Shown: positions 1 through 24,145 of the stretch, piece after piece
Layout: every line of letters starts with the position of its first letter
Position numbering within the stretch: the stretch's first letter is position 1
From: Candidatus Aminicenantota bacterium
GTDB taxonomy: Bacteria; Acidobacteriota; Aminicenantia; UBA2199
Length of the DNA: 64,000 nt
Direction of reading: 5' to 3'
Assembly: GCA_029938635.1 (NCBI GenBank)
Contig: JAOZUQ010000002.1
Span: 1 to 64,000 of the forward strand
Notes under the pieces: generated by a model
Databases searched by the model: none
The model's input: only the letters and a program-made list of their open reading frames with translations
Told to the model about the DNA's origin: nothing
Program-made: the position numbers and the translations under genes

Positions 1-309
1 AGCTTTTTTCCTTCGGAACATCGCCGCTTCGGTAAAACCGGTTCCCAGCCGCTCTTCAAGTTACAGGAGTGACTCATTGCACTCCTGCCTGATGGCTCCC
101 TGACTTTGTCAGGTCGTGAAGATCCACTTAAAGGCGGATCTTGCGTTCCCTCACAAAAAGAATGATATTTGTTGTGTTTCAGGCGTAGCCATCTATCTGC
201 TCTCGCGGGCCTGGAGGGGTGACTCGCTAATATCGTGAACCCCGAGGCCGGGCAGCGGAGACGGATGAGAACATCCGGAGCGGGAGCGAAGTGGATGATG
301 GCGAAAGCC
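1..309 (+). ncRNA. Structured repeat element copy 1 (5' end cut by window edge), HEARO/omega-RNA-like candidate
   Basis: Shares long near-identical blocks with 23861-24094 (agcttttttccttcggaacatcgccgcttcggtaaaaccggttcccagccgctct; caggcgtagccatctatctgctctcg; gggcctggaggggtgactcgctaatatcgtgaaccccgaggccgggcagc; gcgggagcgaagtggatgatggcga). Contains hairpins 64-71/80-87, 99-104/108-113, 119-125/136-142, 216-220/239-243 and 262-267/272-277. Confidence 0.55.
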
Positions 310-23651: not shown

Positions 23652-23804
23652 TTGCCCTGAAAAAAATTATCACACCCTCCTTCTAAAGTCAAAAATGAAA
23701 TGTTTCAGGGAGGAGTGGCTTTTTCCGTAATTACTTTTGGAGTTAAGGAATTTTCAAATATCATTCATTTGTTCTTTCACCACGACGCGTCTGACCAGGT
23801 ATTA

Positions 23805-24094
23805 TTCAGCGGCATTAAAAAGCCAACTCGCATGCTTCTAAAGAAGCATACTCAGACAGTAGCTTTTTTCCTTCGGAACATCGCCGCTTCGGTAAAACCG
23901 GTTCCCAGCCGCTCTGTTTCGTTCCCTCACAAAAAGAATGATATTTTACTTGTAGGGAGAGTGTCAGGCGTAGCCATCTATCTGCTCTCGTGGGCCTGGA
24001 GGGGTGACTCGCTAATATCGTGAACCCCGAGGCCGGGCAGCATAGCCGTATGAGAGCATACGGCGCGGGAGCGAAGTGGATGATGGCGAGAGCC
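23805..24094 (+). ncRNA. Structured repeat element copy 2, HEARO/omega-RNA-like candidate
   Basis: Homologous to 1-309 from 23861 onward; upstream part has hairpin atgcttc-taaa-gaagcat. 3' hairpin 24045-24052/24057-24064 (gccgtatg agag catacggc) shows a compensatory change relative to copy 1. No recognisable protein. 5' boundary is approximate. Confidence 0.55.
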
Positions 24095-24145
24095 GAAACG
24101 AAATGAACAAATTGATGATATTCAGGTTATCAGTTATAATCGGGA

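Follow-up and report, generated by a model that had tools for sequence, protein, structure and literature searches.

The element duplicated in the window (the whole stretch of 64,000 nucleotides analysed here) very probably belongs to an undescribed family of short, non-coding mobile repeats of the Aminicenantia, which are non-autonomous and MITE-like, with selection acting on their fold. The window carries this mosaic repeat twice, at 1-314 and 23755-24099. When 1-314 is compared with 23861-24099, the common blocks measure 139 nt (91% identity), 55 nt (100%) and 30 nt (97%), and about 85 nt (56-140) present in copy 1 are missing from copy 2. The duplicated structured element reported in the preliminary description is therefore real, and the family has far more than two copies.

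Family copies are mosaics of a module A (~190 nt, with terminal inverted repeats) and a B or C core (~130 nt). In copy 1, module A occurs in its long variant (1-170, plus strand), truncated at the 5' side by the contig start, with the ~85 added nucleotides and an inverted-repeat end GAATGATATTT at 160-170; core B follows at 179-309 (plus strand), with an outer stem, an internal loop GTA/GAAA, a three-way junction and two hairpins. Copy 2 reaches upstream of the start given in the preliminary description, as its module A extends to about 23755 (23755-23948, plus strand) and a remnant of a C-type core to 23715. This remnant (23715-23740, minus strand) is a mosaic part corresponding to a C core 3' end (GTGGCTTTTTCCGTAATTACTTTTGG), and complete C copies have the identical sequence at one of their ends. 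From an alignment of 10 copies and its fold, module A is predicted to be a palindrome of ~190 nt almost from end to end, with ends CAAATATCATTC / GAATGATATTT and 61 predicted pairs, 4 of which show changes on both sides. Core B of copy 2, the element originally described, lies at 23964-24094 (plus strand) and contains hairpin 1 (23994-24038), with the conserved apical segment CTCGCTAATATCG at 24008-24020, and hairpin 2 (24045-24064). An outer inverted-repeat end, degenerate in this copy (GAAACGAAATGAACAAATTGATGATAT, 24095-24121, plus strand), is kept in a better form, GAAACTGAATGAATGATATTTG, in other copies. Position 1 of the window is the start of the contig and lies inside the repeat, indicating that the assembly was broken by this repeat family.

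Counts in the genome of the window (G000, an Aminicenantes MAG; 3.05 Mb in 137 contigs) gave dozens of dispersed copies: 35 by DNA matches, and 29 and 27 by two covariance models. Some copies were also found in each of two congeners, G001 and G002. Searched by DNA similarity, the repeat does not occur outside the genus, save for one marginal match of 29 nt. The covariance model R2, built on C copies alone, picks up both B copies of the window (E 9.5e-14 for copy 1 and 1.3e-9 for copy 2, the latter also having an E of 1.3e-39 with model R1). Beyond the genus, R2 has matches in five genomes, namely G015 (30), G019 (3), G003 (5), G009 (1) and G042 (1), the G042 match and part of those in G003 being weak. 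The first four genomes belong to the same family as that of the window and G042 to another family of the class. Concerning a DNA pattern, CTCGNTAATATCG...ATGANNACAT, searched for in the whole collection, 13 matches were obtained; R2 backs only the one in Aminicenantes and we consider the others due to chance. No match was upheld in viral contigs or in phage and plasmid collections, and a search of the available literature on repeats of Aminicenantes returned nothing relevant.

The B and C cores were aligned and folded separately, with the same outcome: the outer stem contains an asymmetric internal loop, there is a long stem, and two hairpins branch from a three-way junction, namely hairpin 1, with the apical sequence CTCGC-TAATATCG, and the short-looped hairpin 2. 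The compensatory change in hairpin 2 is as previously noted, ACGGATG-AGAA-CATCCG in copy 1 being replaced by GCCGTATG-AGAG-CATACGGC in copy 2. Among the other pairings that had been proposed, GGGGT with ACCCC is present in the predicted fold, but CAGGC has its partner at the 3' end (GCC) and not in an internal GCCTG. Folded singly, the two window copies have z-scores of -3.8 and -3.5 and are more stable than all 200 shuffled sequences. In the C copies alone, changes on both sides were observed in 10 of 38 pairs, including swaps of the type GGC:GCC to GCC:GGC, and the covariation score was 0.227 versus 0.134 in shuffled and at most 0.057 in slid controls. The B copies alone gave a small signal (3 of 36 pairs), because they are alike.

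Collecting copies and building covariance models, as the preliminary description had suggested, revealed a covariation across relatives much stronger than two copies could show. In the cross-genus alignment A4, whose fitting to R2 inflates pair counts toward the structure, 32 of 38 pairs have changes on both sides, 90.0% of cells pair (69.2% when shuffled, 33-45% when slid, with a maximum of 44.7%) and the covariation score is 0.496, versus 0.179 shuffled and at most 0.107 slid. As a consequence of this fitting, independent support comes from the separate analyses of B and C and from unfitted folds of single sequences: representatives of other genera, only 39-54% identical to the window core, form comparable branched structures when folded without constraints, with z-scores from -5.5 to -6.9. 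The best reading is that the core fold is under selection and was kept across genera while almost every base in its stems changed. As a rule, small repeats of bacteria are identified from their sequence and do not go beyond one species. Here one fold can be traced across genera with its stem letters almost entirely replaced, which allows a direct measurement of selection acting on the folded shape of a bacterial miniature element, and with the covariance models further members of the family can be searched for.

One line of evidence for mobility is insertion polymorphism. A composite of C and B is present in G000 and missing at the orthologous site of G001; at two further orthologous sites a full G000 copy corresponds to a collapsed one in G001, and collapsed counterparts are also seen in G002, where one site has a GGGGAC palindrome in place of the interior. 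In G015 and G019 the core lies between inverted repeats of ~20 bp (CCAAAATCCACCACCTAAATT / AATTTGATGGTGAATTAAGG), which near-identical copies have in common, and exact 4-bp target duplications flank 6 of the 16 complete copies, where by our own estimate ~0.1 would be expected by chance. In the genus of the window the inverted ends (CAAATATCATTC) are present, but no clear target duplication was seen. Two G015 loci at different sites (L200 and L201) share an identical internal deletion that removed both hairpins, suggesting that the hairpin-less form may itself have moved, and a collapsed copy of 67 nt in the same genome (L207) lies between 4-bp repeats ATGT. Such derivatives argue against an absolute requirement of the fold for movement, which may do without it, yet they may also be dead ends.

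The features found are those of a MITE, the family being short, non-coding, multicopy and non-autonomous, with inverted ends and, in G015 and G019, target duplications. The preliminary description had set a match to a known IS or MITE against its own proposal; a MITE-like nature was largely found, but as an apparently undescribed family rather than one already named. We propose that a transposase acting in trans, presumably of the DDE type, probably cuts and joins the inverted-repeat ends, leaving a 4-bp target duplication, and that the same mechanism may operate in the genus of the window. Pattern searches of these fragmented assemblies gave no end pair at an IS-like distance, and neither a transposase whose ends match nor an autonomous parent sharing the ends was found. 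The core of ~130 nt between the ends would fold as RNA or as single-stranded DNA. Copies are mostly intergenic, recombine into mosaics (A with B, C with B), collapse through internal deletion and, in one genus, have entered protein genes in frame. The fold might be conserved because the moving lineages require it or because it is functional once transcribed.

The identity that had been proposed for the element, an orphan HEARO or IscB omega-RNA serving as guide scaffold for an IscB or IsrB nuclease encoded elsewhere, appears highly improbable. The resemblance is in size, in the several stems, in the dispersed copies and in the nuclease ORF not being adjacent; HEARO (RF02033) is likewise multi-stemmed, comparable in size and tied to mobile DNA (PMC9755519), whereas the element described here has neither a covariance-model match nor an IscB gene and is not located 5' of a nuclease ORF. 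Neither window copy matches RF02033 at the gathering score or at E<=10, no match at E<=3 was found in the loci of relatives, and the search of 119 Aminicenantia genomes including G000-G002 gave no RF02033 match. More generally, nothing credible was found for the element in Rfam at the gathering score or at permissive E-values. It should be noted that RF02033 is reported to match 65% of the 5' UTRs of HEARO nucleases (PMC9755519), so that a miss alone is not decisive. The search for iscB in the genomes, also suggested in the preliminary description, was negative, as no match to RRXRR (PF14239) or guided_IscB (NF040563) is present in G000-G002; the NF040563 search does match HNH-type proteins in relatives, so it is not blind. 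Since the HEARO and RRXRR searches were run without a positive control, the weight lies on their combination with the mobile-element evidence, including the inverted repeats and target duplications of the relatives' copies.

The covariation across genera and the conserved loops would also be accounted for by a structured RNA, cis-regulatory or small, that is putatively carried by a mobile element and has a function, as a transcript, for the host or for neighbouring mRNAs; the location of copies near genes is in agreement with it. Moreover, transposition alone may not explain this conservation, given the hairpin-less deletion derivatives at several sites. By analogy with the NEMIS repeats of Neisseria, for which such roles have been proposed, this RNA might affect the stability of mRNAs or be involved in processing by RNase III. 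We consider this somewhat unlikely, however, since position and orientation relative to the flanking genes are not consistent (-- 12, -+ 10, ++ 5, +- 5) and copies at the same site differ among congeners. The orientation of flanking genes, evaluated as a hint of a terminator or cis-regulator, shows no clear bias. In a related proposal, which we judge unlikely, the core would be a new class of structured RNA, acting in trans or in cis and diversifying with the mobile element across the Aminicenantia, the transposon ends being a mere vehicle. It is quite improbable, finally, that the repeat is a REP-like palindrome which the RAYT/Y1 transposases of the genome mobilise in the form of single-stranded DNA. 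Four Y1_Tnp genes are present in G000, GTAG occurs at the hairpin foot in B cores, and B copies lie within or beside GGGGAC repeats; but it is the GGGGAC repeats, and not the A, B or C sequences, that flank RAYT genes, GTAG is not kept in C copies or in other genera, and the inverted ends with 4-bp duplications of G015 and G019 are unexpected for Y1 transposition. An association with RAYT was accordingly rejected, as the element does not flank these genes in G000. REPs tagged with GTAG/CGTC and their RAYTs (PMC3733652) resemble our case in being palindromic and intergenic and in the RAYT genes present in G000, while our element is far larger (130-330 nt), stands apart from RAYT genes and does not conserve the tag. 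The RAYT-like Y1 transposase genes of G000 are at L062, L065, L068 and L071, two with GGGGAC repeats on both sides and one on one side.

The MITE-like reading finds its closest parallels in known bacterial MITEs. ERIC/RU-1, Correia/NEMIS, RUP and YPAL are non-autonomous, of ~100-200 bp, with inverted ends, target duplications and a stable RNA fold (PMC2229807), and our family is alike in all these properties. Those families, however, are followed by sequence, while here the stems have been almost wholly turned over and architecture and loops stayed; the comparison with the named families is made on their descriptions, and no sequence relation is claimed. What is new is the lineage, the three-way junction and the measurable covariation across genera.

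In G003, 2 of the 5 copies lie inside long open frames, which run on the antisense strand of the element. In these copies (L161:1501-1642 and L167:446-587) the element keeps the reading frame of its host gene, which is of purL type in one case and of AlaX type in the other. The purL-type FGAM synthase is ~45 residues longer than the span matched by the TIGR01857 profile, the second host gene encodes an AlaX/AlaRS-like editing protein, and both proteins gain the same peptide of 43 residues, VASGDISAANAKNCAQFF-PGPQSFG-SSLPAGHAAEKVTSRL. In the genus of the window, the copies examined are intergenic and none is in frame in a gene. Among 24 cores checked, at least one antisense frame is open in 21 and a sense frame in 5, which is only suggestive, the copies being related.

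These insertions recall the Rickettsia palindromic elements (RPE), which measure 105-146 bp, form a long stem-loop, are both intergenic and intragenic and have an open frame fused into conserved protein genes (PMC2229807, PMC10969869). Size, long stem-loop fold, intergenic and intragenic copies and in-frame fusion are shared, whereas the taxon is unrelated and here a three-way junction is conserved across genera by covariation; moreover, target duplication is listed as unknown for RPE in a review's table, while 4-bp duplications are seen in our element. The likeness concerns properties alone and no sequence relation is claimed. The purL-type and AlaX-type insertions would offer a second, distant lineage for the process of selfish DNA entering protein genes known from Rickettsia.

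Other repeats were also observed within copies of the family. In G002 (contig C130, L042:1500-1660) the interior of a B core is swapped for a palindrome GGGGACGGTGCTTGACATTTTGACATTT of the GGGGAC type, that is, repeats are nested in repeats. At two contig ends of G000 (L018:1560-1595 and L026:1-55) B cores are interrupted at the same place by another repeat, TACAGTCTCATTCATCACTCGACTGCCTTCGGC, whose position within B cores and coincidence with assembly breaks suggest a further mobile element.
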